Assembly (NCBI RefSeq): GCF_030848565.1
Contig: NZ_JAVDDV010000001.1
Coordinates: forward strand, 1 to 64,000
Direction: 5' to 3'
Length of the DNA stretch: 64,000 nucleotides
Origin: Natronolimnohabitans sp. A-GB9
Lineage (GTDB): Archaea; Halobacteriota; Halobacteria; Halobacteriales; Natrialbaceae
Shown here: piece after piece, positions 3,748-28,425 of the stretch
How the letters are laid out: each line of letters starts with the position of its first letter
How positions within the stretch are numbered: position 1 is the stretch's first letter
Program-made: the position numbers and the translations under genes
The notes under the pieces: model-generated
Told to the model about the DNA's origin: nothing
The model's database searches: none
What the model saw: only the letters and a program-made list of their open reading frames with translations

Positions 3748-4113
3748 ACTGGTCGTTCTAGGTGGACGAATATTATCCCTGGTGGTTCGGTTACCTAGTC
3801 CGCTGTCGGATCAGCTGCCGAGCGATACGGTTCTTTGTACCAACGTATCGGCAACCGTACAATAGCTCTGTCCGACAGTACGACCCAGCTTCCGGCTGGC
3901 CGCGTTCTCGACTGACCCGGTTCGAGCAATATTTTCCGGGAGGTGGTCGATGTGAGGTCGTGACGCATCGAAAATCGTCCGGTTCGACTCATTTAGGCGT
4001 CGGAACCGGCTAGTTCCGAACGGGATGGCCACCGCTACGTTCCCCAGTCGAACGACCCCGACGTCACCGCCCGTATCGAACCGCGTCCCGCCCGCGTCAT
4101 CCAATCCAGAACG
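3748..4113. other. Intergenic region with divergent promoters
   Basis: Spacer between divergently transcribed usp and the HTH_10 regulator. An AT-rich ATATTATCC patch near 3768-3776 is a candidate usp promoter element, and ATATTTTCC near 3930 a candidate for the regulator. A short fragment of the dispersed repeat (CTGTCCGACAGTACGA) lies at about 3867-3882. Open frames here are short and do not look coding. Confidence 0.45.
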
Positions 4114-4878
4114 ATGAGCACGACGACCGATCGCCTCCGCGAGTTCACCTTCACGCTGACCTACGAGCCCGGGGAAGACCCGGTCGCCGACGTCTTCCAC
4201 GAGTATCCGAATCTCCGGGCAGCGACGATCGACGTCGCGGTCGGACGAACGTCGTACGTCCGTCTCGTCCAGCTCACTGGTCCACCGACTGCGACCGACC
4301 ACCTCCAGACTGCCCTCGAGGATCGTGACTATCTCCCGCGTGCGATCGGAACGGAACGGTGTTGTGGTACGAGCACGGCGTACCGACTCGAGTGTGCCCC
4401 GAGACAGCGGCTGGTCTATGCATACGTAGAGGACATCTGTGACTGCCACTCGATCCACAACATCGCTTCGACGTATCTCGAGCCGGGGACGATCTTCGAG
4501 CACAGACATCGCGCCGGTCGAGAACGGTGGCGACTGCTGATGCGCTCCGATGCGGCGGTCGGCGAGCTGTTCGATCACGTCGAGGCTGCCTGTCGACCGG
4601 GTGTGACAGTCGAGATCGGACACCTCGGAGAAGCAACGGAGTGGCACGGTGATGCGTTCGTCGACGCCGACTTGACGGGCTCACAGCGGCGGGCGCTTGC
4701 ACACGCCGCTGCGAACGGCTACTACGAACGTCCGCGTCAGGTGACGATCGAAGAACTCGCAGACGAACTCGACGTTCCAAAGTCGACGCTCTCCTACCGC
4801 CTTCGAATGGCCGAATCGAGGCTCGTGAAACGATACCTGGATCGGTACTCCGAGACCGAGCCCGGGGTGCACGCCTGA
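4114..4878 (+). CDS. HTH_10-family (bacterio-opsin activator-like) transcription regulator
   Basis: A 254-residue protein. Residues about 1-180 form an N-terminal sensor part like that of haloarchaeal BAT-type regulators, including a Cys/His cluster (ERCCGTS and EDICDCHSIH) that might bind metal or sense redox. Residues about 186-245 are the HTH_10 DNA-binding domain (LTGSQRRALAHAAANGYY, then IEELADELDVPKSTLSYRLR). HTH_10 proteins are haloarchaeal activators or repressors, but the target is unknown. The gene is monocistronic, and its stop codon is the first base group of a palindromic repeat. A second HTH_10 gene lies at 62563. Confidence 0.85.
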   Translation: MSTTTDRLREFTFTLTYEPGEDPVADVFHEYPNLRAATIDVAVGRTSYVRLVQLTGPPTATDHLQTALEDRDYLPRAIGTERCCGTSTAYRLECAPRQRLVYAYVEDICDCHSIHNIASTYLEPGTIFEHRHRAGRERWRLLMRSDAAVGELFDHVEAACRPGVTVEIGHLGEATEWHGDAFVDADLTGSQRRALAHAAANGYYERPRQVTIEELADELDVPKSTLSYRLRMAESRLVKRYLDRYSETEPGVHA

Positions 4879-20032: not shown

Positions 20033-21676
20033 TCAGTTCGAGAACATCGATCCGAGCTGATCGCGCCAGTCCTGGATCTCCGTCACGTCGGCGCGGACGT
20101 CTTCTAACTCGTCTTCGACGTCTTCGAGGTCGTCCTCAAGGTCGTCGACCGAGTCTGCGATGGCGTCAGTGTCGTCCTCGAGATCCTCGACGTCGGCTTC
20201 GAGATCGGAGAGCTCATCCTCGAGGTCGTCGAATCGGTCGTCGGACTCGTCGAGTCGATCTTCAGTGTCACCGACGCGCTCGTCGATCGCGTCGACATCC
20301 GATTCGAGGGCCTCGAGGTCGCTTTTGAGATCCTCGATGAGTTGCTTGCCAGTACCGTTGTCGGCGAGGAACTCCTCGAGGGCGTCGGCGTAGGCCGCGA
20401 CCTCCTCGACGCGGGACTGGAGGTGTTCGACTTTCGCGATGTCCGGGCCCGCCGGCTCGAGGTCGAGTTCGGTTCGGAGAACCTCGAGATCGTCGTCGTC
20501 GAATTCCTCCTCGCGGAGCTCCGTCAGGAACTGGTCGACGACAGAGCCGTCGAAGGAGTCTACGGAGACGGGAGGCGTCTCGTCCGTGACAGCCTCCTCG
20601 TCGGTTCCACTGTCCGTGTCGTCGACGGTGGCCTCGTCCTCGCTTTCGTCTTCGTTCTCGTCGATATCCGCGTCCTCGCTGTCGTCCGTATCAACGTCGT
20701 CGGTCGATTCGTCCTCGCCGTCGGTCTCCGCGGACCCATCGTCAGTGTCGGCGTCGTCGTTCTCGAGGGCGTCTTCCGACTCGTCGTCGGTGAGTGGGTC
20801 GGCCTCGTCCGATTCGGGAGAGTCGTCTTCGACTTCCGCCTCGTCGGACTCGGTAGAATCGTCGAGATCGAGCTCGATCTCGGGACCGTCGTCGGCCTCT
20901 GTTTCGTCAGCTTCGGTATCGTCGTCAGTCTCGAGATCGATATCGACGTCGCCCCCATCAGTTTCGTCGTCTGTCTCGGCGTCGTCCGGATCCGGGATCT
21001 CCTCCTCCTCGAAGCCGAGATCGATATCCGGCGTGTCGTCCGTGTCCGATTCGTCCTCGTCGTCGACCGGTTCGGGCTCGGGGTCGACGTCACCGAGGTC
21101 GAGATCGAGCCCCGCTTCGTCGTCCGCGTCGGTCTCGCTCTCGTCGTCGGCCCCGGTATCGTCGTCTGCGGCCGCGTCGTCCTCGAGTCCGGGAACGCTG
21201 TCGGACTCGCCGGCGATCATGTCCTTGACCGGCTGATTGCGGTCTTCGGAGAGAATGCTCCCGATGACGTCGTCGTCGATCGCTTCGGCCCCGGAACCGC
21301 CGTCGTCCTCAGCATTGACCTCGACGAGTTCGGGTTCGGTCAGGAACTGGTCGGCGTCGTCTTCGTCGTCGATACGGATTCCATACACCGTCATGAGCCG
21401 CTCGTCGGGCTCGAGCGTACCGGTAAACTCCACGTGATTGTCCTGGAATGCCGTCCAGTCGTCGCTGTGGTAGTCGGGATGGAACCCGACCTTATCCATC
21501 GGGAACGATTCGGGAATCTCCTCGGAGAGTCGAAACGTCACCTGCTCGTCGCGATCCGATTCGATCTCGAACCGGATCGCAGGTACGGGAAACTCGTCCG
21601 CCGCGAACGTCTTTCGGACGCTCAACCCGTCAGCACTGACCTCGACAACGTCGTCCGTGTCGGCGGTATTACTCAT
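20033..21676 (-). CDS. Large acidic protein with C-terminal coiled coil
   Basis: A 547-residue soluble protein in three parts. Residues about 1-115 are a folded domain (VRKTFAADEFPVPAIRFEIE, then VTFRLSEEIPESFPMDKVGF). Residues about 125-375 are a low-complexity Asp/Glu/Ser/Thr tract. Residues about 380-540 are a heptad-patterned coiled coil (DLEALESDVDAIDERVGDTE, DLEDDLEDVEDELEDVRADV). No enzyme motif. Comparable haloarchaeal proteins are thought to be structural or scaffolding, but this is unproven. The long plus-strand frames over the same DNA are mirror artefacts of the acidic repeat. Confidence 0.75.
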   Translation of the reverse strand: MSNTADTDDVVEVSADGLSVRKTFAADEFPVPAIRFEIESDRDEQVTFRLSEEIPESFPMDKVGFHPDYHSDDWTAFQDNHVEFTGTLEPDERLMTVYGIRIDDEDDADQFLTEPELVEVNAEDDGGSGAEAIDDDVIGSILSEDRNQPVKDMIAGESDSVPGLEDDAAADDDTGADDESETDADDEAGLDLDLGDVDPEPEPVDDEDESDTDDTPDIDLGFEEEEIPDPDDAETDDETDGGDVDIDLETDDDTEADETEADDGPEIELDLDDSTESDEAEVEDDSPESDEADPLTDDESEDALENDDADTDDGSAETDGEDESTDDVDTDDSEDADIDENEDESEDEATVDDTDSGTDEEAVTDETPPVSVDSFDGSVVDQFLTELREEEFDDDDLEVLRTELDLEPAGPDIAKVEHLQSRVEEVAAYADALEEFLADNGTGKQLIEDLKSDLEALESDVDAIDERVGDTEDRLDESDDRFDDLEDELSDLEADVEDLEDDTDAIADSVDDLEDDLEDVEDELEDVRADVTEIQDWRDQLGSMFSN

Positions 21677-22870: not shown

Positions 22871-22951
22871 ATACGGTCTCCTGTCGTCACGTCCCGCCGA
22901 TCGCCAGGAGAGCGTCGGCGATCGGCGGGTGATCGGGACAGCAGTCCGTAT
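22871..22951. repeat. Palindromic repeat, type A, fused to a TAA stop
   Basis: In reverse it begins AATACGGACTGCTGTCCCGA and ends GACGACAGGAGACCGTAT, closely matching the copy at 4878-4958. Its first base overlaps the stop codon (TAA) of the DUF7344-like gene. A further arm, CTGACTGGTGTCCGACAG (22847-22864), lies just to its left. Confidence 0.8.
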
Positions 22952-23781
22952 TAGTCGTCTTCGGCCACCGGACGACGCGACTGAGCGGTCGGTGAAACGA
23001 TGACTCGGCCCTGAAGCCGCTCCCTGGCTTCGGCATCACTCTCGTCGCTCGAGGCGCCCGAAACCGAATCGTCGTCGGATGGGACGAACCGATCGTCGTC
23101 GACGTCGGCGTCCGCTTCGTCCTCGAGCCACTCGACGCACAACAGCGGATGGTCCACGACGGAGACGCTGCCGGTTTCGGCGTCGTAGCCGACGAGCCCG
23201 GCGTCGTCCAGCAGCGGGAGGTGGACGTGGACGAGCGCGGTCCGAACCTCGAGGATACGGTCCTCGCCGACGTTCCGTTCGGTGACGCCGTCCTCGCAAG
23301 CAGTGACGGCTCGAGCGAGCGATTCGGTCGTGATCGGCTCGGACTCGTTTGCGAGGACGGTCAGGACCGTTCGCCGCCGGGAGTCGGAAAGTCCCTCGAA
23401 GAGGGCGTCGAGGTCGGTCTCGGACGTGTCCGATCGGCCGTCGACGACGGCCATGAGTTCGTCGTCGTCGAAGGCCCAGTGATCGGTCGTCACGACTCGA
23501 TCGTCGTCGGTCTCCGTGAGCAGTCCGGCTTCGAAAAGCGCCGGCAGCACTCGGTGGTGGCAGTCGACGAGCACGCGCCGGCGGTCGTCCTCGGTGACCG
23601 CAGCGGCCGGTTTATCGTCGATTACCGCGGCCAACTCGAGTGCGAGATCTGCTTTCCCGATGCCGGCTGGCGTTTGGTTGCGGACGATGCGGAGAAGTTC
23701 GCGTCGGTCGCGGGTCGCAAGGACGTCGAAGAGGTCGTCTCGGGAGGCGGCCGATCGGTCGCTGACGTCTGGATTACTCAT
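22951..23781 (-). CDS. DUF7344-like double winged-helix regulator
   Basis: A 276-residue protein with two similar domains (about 14-105 and 120-215). Each begins with a motif such as LFDVLATRDRRELLRIV or LFEGLSDSRRRTVLTVL and ends with ..HWAFDD or ..HPLLC. This matches the haloarchaeal DUF7344 winged-helix family, often duplicated in one chain. The tail (about 220-276) is acidic. DNA binding is expected, target unknown. The stop codon is fused to a type A repeat. Confidence 0.75.
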   Translation of the reverse strand: MSNPDVSDRSAASRDDLFDVLATRDRRELLRIVRNQTPAGIGKADLALELAAVIDDKPAAAVTEDDRRRVLVDCHHRVLPALFEAGLLTETDDDRVVTTDHWAFDDDELMAVVDGRSDTSETDLDALFEGLSDSRRRTVLTVLANESEPITTESLARAVTACEDGVTERNVGEDRILEVRTALVHVHLPLLDDAGLVGYDAETGSVSVVDHPLLCVEWLEDEADADVDDDRFVPSDDDSVSGASSDESDAEARERLQGRVIVSPTAQSRRPVAEDD

Positions 23782-24111: not shown

Positions 24112-25038
24112 ATGTCAGACGATCGATCCGAGACGGGGGTTCGACGACGGAGCGTCCTCCAGACGGTCGGCGGTGCGGCCGGTATCGCGCTCTTAGGTGC
24201 GGCCGGAACGACCGCGGCCGTGGCCCAGGACGGCACAGAGAACGGCCAGCCTCGCTATCAACTGCCCGAACTTCCCTACGAGTACGACGCGCTCGAGCCC
24301 CACATCGACGAGCGCATCATGGAGTTACACCACACCGAACACCACCAGGCGTACGTCGACGGCGCCAACGACGCACTCGAGGAGTTCGAGGCGATGCGCG
24401 ACGCCGGAGAGTTCGACGACGTCCGAGCTGCCAAACGCGACTTCTCCTTCAATCTCTCGGGGCACGTCAATCACACGATCTTCTGGGAGAACATGAGTCC
24501 CGATGGCGGGGGCGAGCCCGAAGGCACCCTCGCGACCGCGATCGACGAGAACTTCGGCTCGTTTGCCGACTTTCAGGCCGAGTTCACCGCGACCGCGAAC
24601 AACGTCGAGGGCGACGGCTGGGCGATGGTGTTCTACGAACCGCTCGCGGACGCGCTCGTGATCGGGCAGGTCGAGGGCCAAAACGAGCTGGCCCACCAGC
24701 GGGCGATCCCGATCCTCACGCTCGACGTCTGGGAACACGCCTACTATCTGCAGTACGAGAACGACCGCGGAGCGTACGTCGACGAGTGGTGGAACGTCGT
24801 CGACTGGGCGGACGTCGAACGACGGTACGAACTGCTGACCGACGTCGACGCGCCCGACCTCGAGGACGAAACACCGGCCGATCCGGACGAAGACGAACCG
24901 GAGGCCGACGAGCCGCCTGGAGAGCCTGGCGAGCCCGGTGAGCCCGGACCGAACGGCGAACCAGGGAACGGTGGCCCGGGCGATGGTCCGATGGGACCCG
25001 AAGGCGACGGCGGTCCGATGGGCCCAGAACAGAACTGA
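24112..25038 (+). CDS. sod: Exported Fe/Mn superoxide dismutase with collagen-like tail
   Basis: A 308-residue enzyme dismuting superoxide. A Tat leader opens it (VRRRSVLQTVGGAAG, cleavage probably before AQDG near 38). The SOD fold (about 48-245) has all four metal ligands: His73 (ELHHTEHH), His121 (VNHTIFW), Asp205 and His209 (LDVWEHAYY). After residue about 268 comes a tail of Gly-X-Y triplets (GEPGEPGEPGPNGEPG), ending MGPEQN. Typical haloarchaeal SODs are about 200 residues, cytoplasmic and tailless. The signal suggests activity outside the membrane, with the tail acting as stalk or anchor. Its stop codon begins a repeat-like ATACGG. Start at 24112 is set by the leader. Confidence 0.9.
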   Translation: MSDDRSETGVRRRSVLQTVGGAAGIALLGAAGTTAAVAQDGTENGQPRYQLPELPYEYDALEPHIDERIMELHHTEHHQAYVDGANDALEEFEAMRDAGEFDDVRAAKRDFSFNLSGHVNHTIFWENMSPDGGGEPEGTLATAIDENFGSFADFQAEFTATANNVEGDGWAMVFYEPLADALVIGQVEGQNELAHQRAIPILTLDVWEHAYYLQYENDRGAYVDEWWNVVDWADVERRYELLTDVDAPDLEDETPADPDEDEPEADEPPGEPGEPGEPGPNGEPGNGGPGDGPMGPEGDGGPMGPEQN

Positions 25039-25147: not shown

Positions 25148-26197
25148 CTACCAGGTCCCGTGGAAGGTGTCGAAAGAGAGCTCCTCGAGTGGCTTGTTAC
25201 CGACGGCAATCTCGTACTCGCCGGGGGTAAGCATCGGCTTGTGGAACTGTGGTCCGTCGTCGGTAGTGATCCGTGGACAGCCGGTGTTGACGAAGGCGTC
25301 CATATCGAAGTTGCGCAGTCGGTCGGGTGTCACCTCGTCCATCGTGATGAGGTAGGCGTCGTCGTTGTCGTCTAGGATGTCCTGGGCGACTTCCCAGCGA
25401 CCCTGCCCGATCTTGGTACAGAAGATGACGCCCCACTTTTCGGCGTCCATCGCGCGGTGGACGGCGCCGTAGCGCTGTTTCATGAACTTCTCGGTGTCAG
25501 CGACGGTGACGACGTTGTTGACGGGGTCGGCGATGACGACGTGTTTGTCGGGGTACTCCATCGCCAGGCCAAGCGGGTGGAACTTCCCGCCGCCGACGTA
25601 CAGCACCTGATCGGCGGGTACGTCCGCGCTCGCGTAGTTACAACCCAGCACCTGGCCCTCGTGGGTCAGACGCTCGTCGCCGCGTCGGCTGTGGACCTCG
25701 TAGCCTCGCTCCTCTAAGAACGCGGCCATCTCCTCGTAGCGGTTCATGTGCTGGGCGGTGGTGACCAGCCCGACGTCTTCGGTCTCCTCGGGAGGCTCTA
25801 AGGTGTCGAGCGCCTCCTCGATGATCGGCTCGACCTCGACATTCGAGAACAGGGGTACGTAAATCACCTTGTCCGTGTTCTTCATCGGCGAGTGGCCGAA
25901 GTGGACGAACACGTCGGTGCGTTTCATCAGATAGGTGTCGAGGTCACAGGCGCCGTAACACGGCTGCCCCGAGAGCATGATGGTGACGTCGTCGCCGGTG
26001 AGCTCCCGCAGATCGTCGGCGACCGACGGCCCCCGTCGCTTGAGCCCCTCGGGGAACTGCAGCCCGACTTTCGTCGCGTCGCGCTCGTCGATCGCGTCGA
26101 CGATCCGCTCGAGTTCGTAGTCCCATTCGCGATCGTGTTTCAGCTGCATTCCGGTGTTGCGGAGGTCCCCCTCGGTGTACTCCGGCTCCTGACTCAT
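25148..26197 (-). CDS. dph2: Diphthamide synthase, radical SAM-like Dph2 subunit
   Basis: A 349-residue archaeal Dph2. It makes the first C-C bond of diphthamide by transferring a 3-amino-3-carboxypropyl group from SAM to a histidine of elongation factor 2. The three cluster cysteines, one per domain, are visible in QPCYGACDLD, LGCNYAS and NTGCPRI. Start set at 26197 (MSQEPEYTEGDLRNTGMQLK); an upstream ATG adds 23 unconserved residues. Archaea use a homodimer, so one gene suffices. It diverges from the membrane protein gene at 26376. Confidence 0.93.
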   Translation of the reverse strand: MSQEPEYTEGDLRNTGMQLKHDREWDYELERIVDAIDERDATKVGLQFPEGLKRRGPSVADDLRELTGDDVTIMLSGQPCYGACDLDTYLMKRTDVFVHFGHSPMKNTDKVIYVPLFSNVEVEPIIEEALDTLEPPEETEDVGLVTTAQHMNRYEEMAAFLEERGYEVHSRRGDERLTHEGQVLGCNYASADVPADQVLYVGGGKFHPLGLAMEYPDKHVVIADPVNNVVTVADTEKFMKQRYGAVHRAMDAEKWGVIFCTKIGQGRWEVAQDILDDNDDAYLITMDEVTPDRLRNFDMDAFVNTGCPRITTDDGPQFHKPMLTPGEYEIAVGNKPLEELSFDTFHGTW

Positions 26198-26375
26198 TGG
26201 CCGCTCTAGCGACCACGGACGTATATACTGCACGCTGTCTCGAGACCCGGTGTCGCTGTCTGTCACCCCAGCCGTGTTCGACTCGCCTCGCGCCTGTCGG
26301 CTGCAGTGACTGACGTTATTTCCGACTGGTAACTTGACCCAACAGTCATAGTACTGGAGTATAAAGGGGGTGCCA

Positions 26376-27378: not shown

Positions 27379-28425
27379 ATGGCGAAAGGCCTAGACGTTG
27401 GAACGATGAACATCCTGTCAGCACAACAGGATGGGAACGACACGGTGTTCGTGCAGCAGCGTAACTCCTTCGTAGAGATCGAGTACTCTGACATGGCAGA
27501 GCAGATGCTCTCGCGAAGCGAGGTCCTCCATATCCGCAAAGGGGACAAGGTGTACGTCGTCGGCGACGACGCACTCAACTTCGCGAACATCTTCAACAAG
27601 GAGACCCGTCGACCGATGAAACACGGGATCCTCTCGAACGACGAGAAGAGCGCGATCCCGATGATGAAACTCATCATCGAACAGGTCGTCGGCGAGCCCG
27701 CCTACCCCGACGAGAAGCTCTACTTCTCGACGCCCGCCGATCCGATCGACTCGGAGCTCTCGACGCTGTACCACCAGAAGACGATCGAGTCCTTCCTCAA
27801 TGACATGGGTTACGACGCAGAGCCCATCAACGAGGGGATGTCGGTCATCTATAGTGAACTCGCCGACAACAACTTCACCGGTCTCGGTATCTCCTTCGGT
27901 GCCGGGATGACGAACGTCTGTCTGGCCTACTACGCGGTGCCGGTCATGAAGTTCTCCGTCGCCCGCGGTGGCGACTGGGTCGACGAACAGGCCGCCCGGG
28001 CGACCGGTACGCCGGTCGACAAGGTCACCTCGATCAAGGAAGACGACTTCGAACTCGACTTCACGACCGACGTCGGCGGCGTCGAGGGTGCGCTGTCGAT
28101 CTACTACGAGAACCTGCTCGACTACGTCATCGAGAACATCGTCAAGGAAGTCGACGAAGAGGACGTCGAGGAAGGCCTGGACGTCCCCGTCGTCGTCACC
28201 GGCGGTACCTCGAGTCCGGACGGCTTCGAGGCGCTGTTCCGCGACCATCTCGAGGACGCCAACATCCCGTTCTCGATCAGCAGCGTCAGCCACGCCAACG
28301 AGCCGCTTTACAGCGTCGCCCGCGGTGGCCTCGTCGCCGCCCGCTCCGACGAAGACGTCGACCACGACAGCGAATCGGGCGCCGAACCGGAACGGGAACG
28401 AGAACCGGAAGCCGAAGCCGAGTAA
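27379..28425 (+). CDS. Salactin-like actin homologue
   Basis: A 348-residue actin-superfamily ATPase. Phosphate-1 loop GLDVGTMN (4-11), phosphate-2 segment [12 protein letters not shown] (169-180) with a ParM-like [10 protein letters not shown] (195-203), and adenosine motif [11 protein letters not shown] (272-282). The opening [20 protein letters not shown] is what I recall of Halobacterium salactin, a dynamically unstable filament that grows from cell poles and affects DNA distribution. The last 20 residues are acidic and variable. Expected: cytoplasmic ATP-dependent polymer for DNA or plasmid positioning. No other segregation gene is adjacent, only the membrane protein upstream. Confidence 0.85.

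Follow-up and report, generated by a model that had tools for sequence, protein, structure and literature searches.

The superoxide dismutase (SOD) gene at 24112..25038 (+) of the window, by which we mean the whole stretch of 64,000 nucleotides from Natronolimnohabitans sp. A-GB9 that was analysed, quite likely codes for a second SOD that is exported through the Tat pathway. It would have an ordinary tetrameric SodFM3-like core that removes superoxide at the cell surface, and a disordered acidic tail. Judged from its sequence, the gene belongs to a little-described lineage of exported haloarchaeal SodFM3-like enzymes. No description of Tat-exported haloarchaeal SODs was found in the open literature, subscription journals lying mostly outside that coverage. 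What is documented here is a second haloarchaeal SOD lineage that is retained alongside the housekeeping enzyme, and its apparent gains or losses of the leader, its retained start methionines and its tandem copies make it a tractable case of a cytosolic metalloenzyme turning exported.

Catalytic domain, leader and tail

The open reading frame runs on the forward strand from ATG at 24112 to the stop codon at 25036-25038, as the earlier note had placed it, and codes for 308 amino acids; Pfam, the orthologues and dN/dS all support it as the gene of a putatively exported Fe/Mn SOD of SodFM3 type. The catalytic domain (residues 48-244; 24253..24843, +) is matched by Pfam far over the curated cut-offs, with Sod_Fe_N at residues 48-129 (4.7e-32) and Sod_Fe_C at residues 136-238 (1.9e-34). 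The metal ligands H73, H121, D205 and H209, three histidines and one aspartate, show no variation in an alignment of 32 sequences, and the intact four-ligand fold that had been read from the sequence is thus confirmed. In the AlphaFold2 model the domain has a pLDDT mostly >90, and Foldseek with this model returned archaeal and bacterial Fe/Mn SODs at the top, with a TM-score (target) of about 0.9-0.97 and an rmsd mostly of 1.0-1.7 Å; the nearest solved structures are the SODs of Pyrobaculum, Aeropyrum and Thermobifida. The dN/dS of the domain is 0.09-0.19 against four orthologues, and it evolves under purifying selection.

SodFM3 enzymes are characterised by a kept HxxxHH, the absence of the N-terminal Gln and a water-coordinating C-terminal His, which is Gln in about 25% (PMC10172142). 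The window protein agrees with this description, having H73-H74-T-E-H77-H78, Gly117 at the position of the N-terminal Gln and Gln190 at the C-terminal position. The SodFM3 and SodFM4 enzymes are homotetramers (PMC10172142), and by analogy with this subfamily the window enzyme is expected to be tetrameric as well. Gln190 lies at D-15 and Thr203 at D-2. A C-terminal Gln mostly goes with a preference for Mn (21 of 27 enzymes), and Thr at D-2 accompanies Fe (PMC10172142); Gln190 thus points to Mn and Thr203 to Fe, so that the metal is not callable from sequence. Cambialism seems plausible from these residues, and the second-sphere change from His to Gln in the window lineage may shift the metal preference. 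On the SOD tree, Gln versus His at the water-coordinating position amounts to one change among the rows scored. One clade, made up of the Tat-SODs of Natrialbaceae and nearby families, has Gln at the position of residue 190, and most others of the haloarchaeal group have His. The D-2 residue varies within this clade between Thr, Ala, Pro and Gly, a natural series for tests of metal preference. A tie between the His/Gln switch and export was considered and rejected; leader-bearing forms exist with either residue, and Gln marks one clade.

Residues 1-39 (24112..24228, +) form a predicted Tat signal peptide, MSDDRSETGVRRRSVLQTVGGAAGIALLGAAGTTAAVAQ|DG, which is read from the sequence and from its conservation in orthologues. 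A twin-arginine n-region (RRRSVL, that is RR-S-V-L), a hydrophobic h-region and a cleavage site of A-x-A type (AVAQ|DG) are all found, and the Tat leader claimed in the earlier note is therefore present. Residues 23-37 are the most hydrophobic stretch of the whole protein, the AlphaFold2 pLDDT is <50 across residues 7-41, and no lipobox Cys follows the leader in the window protein. RRx[FVI]L is present in nearly all orthologues, and the leader is kept in 26 Natrialbaceae genomes and in further families; leaders were called across sequences by a simple rule and reading by eye.

At its other end the protein has an acidic Gly/Pro-rich tail of 64 residues (245-308; 24844..25035, +) with a net charge of -21, delimited from the sequence, the AlphaFold2 model and the orthologues. 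It appears as coil with a pLDDT of 51-58 in the monomer model, and its highest mean hydropathy over 15 residues is -0.95, so that no hydrophobic segment is found in it. A C-terminal membrane anchor of the PGF-CTERM type and a lipobox were accordingly rejected, there being neither a hydrophobic tail segment nor a Cys after the leader. A flexible functional anchor, tethering the enzyme to the cell surface by for example the S-layer or glycans, we regard as unlikely. The enzyme, if exported, has no lipid anchor, an acidic Gly/Pro-rich extension could span the S-layer, and the composition of the tail is partly retained between the window and sister species; but the lack of any hydrophobic segment or lipobox speaks against a tether, and most orthologues have no such tail and yet keep the leader.

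Relatives, locus and history of the leader

All of the 125 Natrialbaceae genomes contain a SOD, and 26 of them code, in addition to the cytosolic housekeeping enzyme, for an orthologue of the window protein that has a Tat-type leader. Within the order, strong matches (E<=1e-58), leader present or not, were found in 75 of the 392 sampled genomes. Archaeal SODs with Tat leaders, for which the earlier note had asked for a search, were thus found in Natrialbaceae and in further haloarchaeal families. An exported SOD, supported by the conserved leader, is the best reading of the window gene from its sequence, but the export is not exceptional as the earlier note had supposed, and its view of haloarchaeal SODs as normally short, cytoplasmic enzymes holds for the housekeeping paralogue alone. 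That paralogue, the form common among haloarchaea, is found in the same genome as a second, leaderless SOD (C12:329581-330168) with 46% identity to the window protein. Against NF041312, the haloarchaeal housekeeping SOD [Mn], the window protein scores 218.4 bits, under the equivalog cut-off of 300, and is not a member. In a tree of 108 SOD domains the housekeeping enzyme forms a separate clade, and the window gene pairs with that of Natronolimnohabitans innermongolicus (support 100/83).

The neighbourhood comparison shows that the SOD gene of Natronolimnohabitans, Natronorubrum and Halopiger is flanked on one side by genes for a metallo-beta-lactamase-fold protein and a DUF7344 protein, the latter being the conserved and divergent upstream neighbour in the window (22951..23781, -). 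On the other side are a diphthamide synthesis gene, in the window the conserved and convergent downstream neighbour of DPH2 type (25148..26266, -), and the genes for a DUF7139 protein and, beside it, volactin, a haloarchaeal actin homologue (27379-28425, +; Pfam 2.1e-138). At the Natronococcus SOD locus DUF7344 was not found, and the remaining neighbours are kept. Contamination or recent transfer of the window SOD was rejected, the neighbourhood being conserved across genera. Another neighbour conserved in several genera is the gene for a very acidic protein of 547 amino acids (20033-21676, -), whose C-terminus resembles a coiled coil and which matches FlaC_arch weakly, below the cut-off.

Fourteen genomes of the family were picked for having no intact copy of the SOD, and in most of them the neighbours are the same but enclose no SOD. 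In Natronorubrum halalkaliphilum (G103) the exported SOD is represented at the syntenic place by a frameshifted, stop-bearing copy (L152 about 3853-4624, equal to L026 6001-6772), which is either a pseudogene or a sequencing error. An old SOD locus with repeated loss fits these observations, and gain in some lineages is possible. About 100 of the 125 genomes of the family lack the exported SOD and one has it in broken form, so that it is dispensable in many lineages.

The presence of the leader requires at least 6 changes by parsimony on the SOD tree, and haloarchaeal SODs appear to have acquired or lost Tat leaders several times. A single origin was rejected when a tree uniting all leader-bearing sequences was evaluated (p-AU 0.0001). 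Several leader-bearing SODs keep a Met at the start of their cytosolic relatives (..TQMSYELPEL, ..LPMTYELPEL and ..TMTYELPPL), as is expected where a leader was added ahead of the old start. Leaderless and Tat-leader SODs of the window lineage stand in tandem in two genomes of one family (L090 and L097 in G170, L091 and L098 in G183), and such a pair suggests a duplication that was followed by the gain of a leader. A haloarchaeal genome of 7.3 Mb (G286) has five SODs of the window lineage above the threshold of the order search, two of them with Tat-type leaders.

A leader that is vestigial or non-functional would make the enzyme a cytosolic back-up SOD. Close leaderless cytosolic relatives do exist, with up to 67% identity, and the two genomes with both forms in tandem would suit such an explanation, but RRx[FVI]L, the hydrophobic stretch and the polar linker are kept in the 26 Natrialbaceae orthologues although their surroundings change fast, and leader-bearing SODs recur across separate lineages. 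We find a vestigial leader distinctly improbable, and prefer a functional Tat leader and an exported enzyme.

The Gly-X-Y part of the tail

The run of Gly-X-Y triplets that had been described behind the SOD fold is there (24919..25029, +; sequence and repeat analysis). It consists of seven triplets in register (GEP GEP GEP GPN GEP GNG GPG), an extra Asp, and five more (GPM GPE GDG GPM GPE). A seven-triplet run arises in 0.6% of composition shuffles of the Gly-rich region, which was picked post hoc. The core, GEPGEPGEP, is encoded by a tandem repeat of 9 bp in the DNA (24915-24948, 3.8 copies), and because this repeat underlies it the Gly-X-Y register is automatic. A DNA pattern search for (Gly-X-Pro)3 in the same genome found only the window SOD and one further gene, that of a rhomboid protease, which on its coding strand reads (GGP)n at the C-terminus; the matches were fewer than those of the reversed control (5 vs 7 per strand). 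This rhomboid protease has an AN1-like zinc finger (contig 12, L166 1476-2432, -), and its end shows that Gly/Pro repeat ends arise in unrelated proteins.

Past the last conserved VVDW there are 76 residues in the window protein, 110 in the sister species and 17-66 in the orthologues. The tails of the orthologues have no common sequence and are often acidic, and many orthologues are almost tail-less; the types found are a short acidic tail (Natronococcus), (Thr-Asp)n in three genomes, and a tail of Asp/Glu/Ala/Pro (Natronorubrum). The tail of the sister species contains Gly, Pro, Glu, Asp and Met like that of the window protein, and its longest Gly-X-Y run is two. Among 26 related sequences the longest run is 0-2 triplets, and the register is found only in the window species. 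Repeats are seen in the DNA of other tails too, of 21-45 bp in the sister species and of 6 bp in the (Thr-Asp)n tail. GGPM motifs and an acidic Gly/Pro-rich composition are common to the tails of the window and sister species, and a comparison of these sequences makes some constraint on composition possible. From its sequence and model, the tail is probably a fast-evolving, disordered extension. The earlier note had named low complexity and lack of conservation in relatives as grounds against its own proposal for the tail, and both were found, the sister species having no Gly-X-Y register.

That proposal was a tail folding as a collagen-like triple helix, which would trimerise the SOD or make a stalk. 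In its favour are the seven uninterrupted triplets, the five that follow a break of one residue and their high content of Pro and Glu, and recombinant bacterial collagens reach a triple helix without hydroxyproline, aided by Pro and charged residues (PMC10191275). We nevertheless hold it to be very improbable. The register is confined to the window species, the longest run being two triplets in the sister species and 0-2 in every other orthologue, and there are only 12 triplets, which are interrupted, acidic or neutral and without Lys or Arg for salt bridges. The Pfam collagen model gives no match to the window protein even at E<=1. The streptococcal model collagen requires a separate trimerisation domain (PMC10191275), SodFM3-type homotetramers (PMC10172142) have the wrong symmetry for three chains, and the tail was modelled as coil, in a monomer run that is blind to trimers. 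A collagen-like stalk was rejected as the main reading on non-conservation, repeat origin, the missing Pfam match and symmetry; what is left of the stalk is its flexibility, which the predicted coil and disorder favour, and not a triple-helical or trimerising function. It is scarcely credible that in 3-4 M salt the twelve triplets would link one SOD tetramer to another by short triple helices and so build an extracellular antioxidant mesh; if true, this would be a collagen-like stalk that arose recently, in a single archaeal species, out of a 9-bp repeat. The collagen idea is not worth carrying forward without biophysical data.

Presumed function and known systems

The actual export and cleavage that we infer, together with the metal, the tetramer, the extracellular role and the function of the tail, could be joined in the following way. 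The Tat pathway transports folded proteins (PMC2910488), and the SOD can therefore gain its metal in the cytosol before export. It would fold there, take up Mn and/or Fe, and leave as a folded protein through the Tat pathway to the cell surface, the space beneath the S-layer or the medium. Superoxide crosses the membrane poorly, and the exported enzyme would remove it and spare the exposed proteins of the envelope. The tail most likely serves only, by its charge and flexibility, to keep the SOD in solution, hydrated and extended where salt is concentrated, and its sequence would drift through expansion and contraction of repeats.

The extracellular SOD of Sulfolobus solfataricus is reported, as cited in PMC2910488, to protect cell-bound proteins. 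Like the window SOD it is an archaeal Fe/Mn SOD, but its gene has no signal sequence, whereas the window SOD has a Tat-type leader. The streptococcal Scl2 resembles the window tail in having Gly-X-Y triplets without hydroxyproline; it combines a Gly-X-Y triple-helix domain with one domain for trimerisation and another for wall attachment (PMC10191275), whereas the window tail consists of 12 triplets with an interruption and lacks the other domains. The housekeeping haloarchaeal SOD [Mn] (NF041312) is of the same superfamily and occurs in the same genome, but it lacks a leader, carries His at the water position and belongs to a separate clade, at 46% identity. With the SodFM3-type SODs of Pyrobaculum, Aeropyrum, Thermobifida and Mycobacterium tuberculosis the window SOD has in common the two-domain fold, the four ligands, HxxxHH and the C-terminal water-coordinating position, with 47-55% identity in structural alignments. 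It differs from them in having Gln for the usual His, Thr at D-2, a Tat-type leader and an acidic C-terminal tail.
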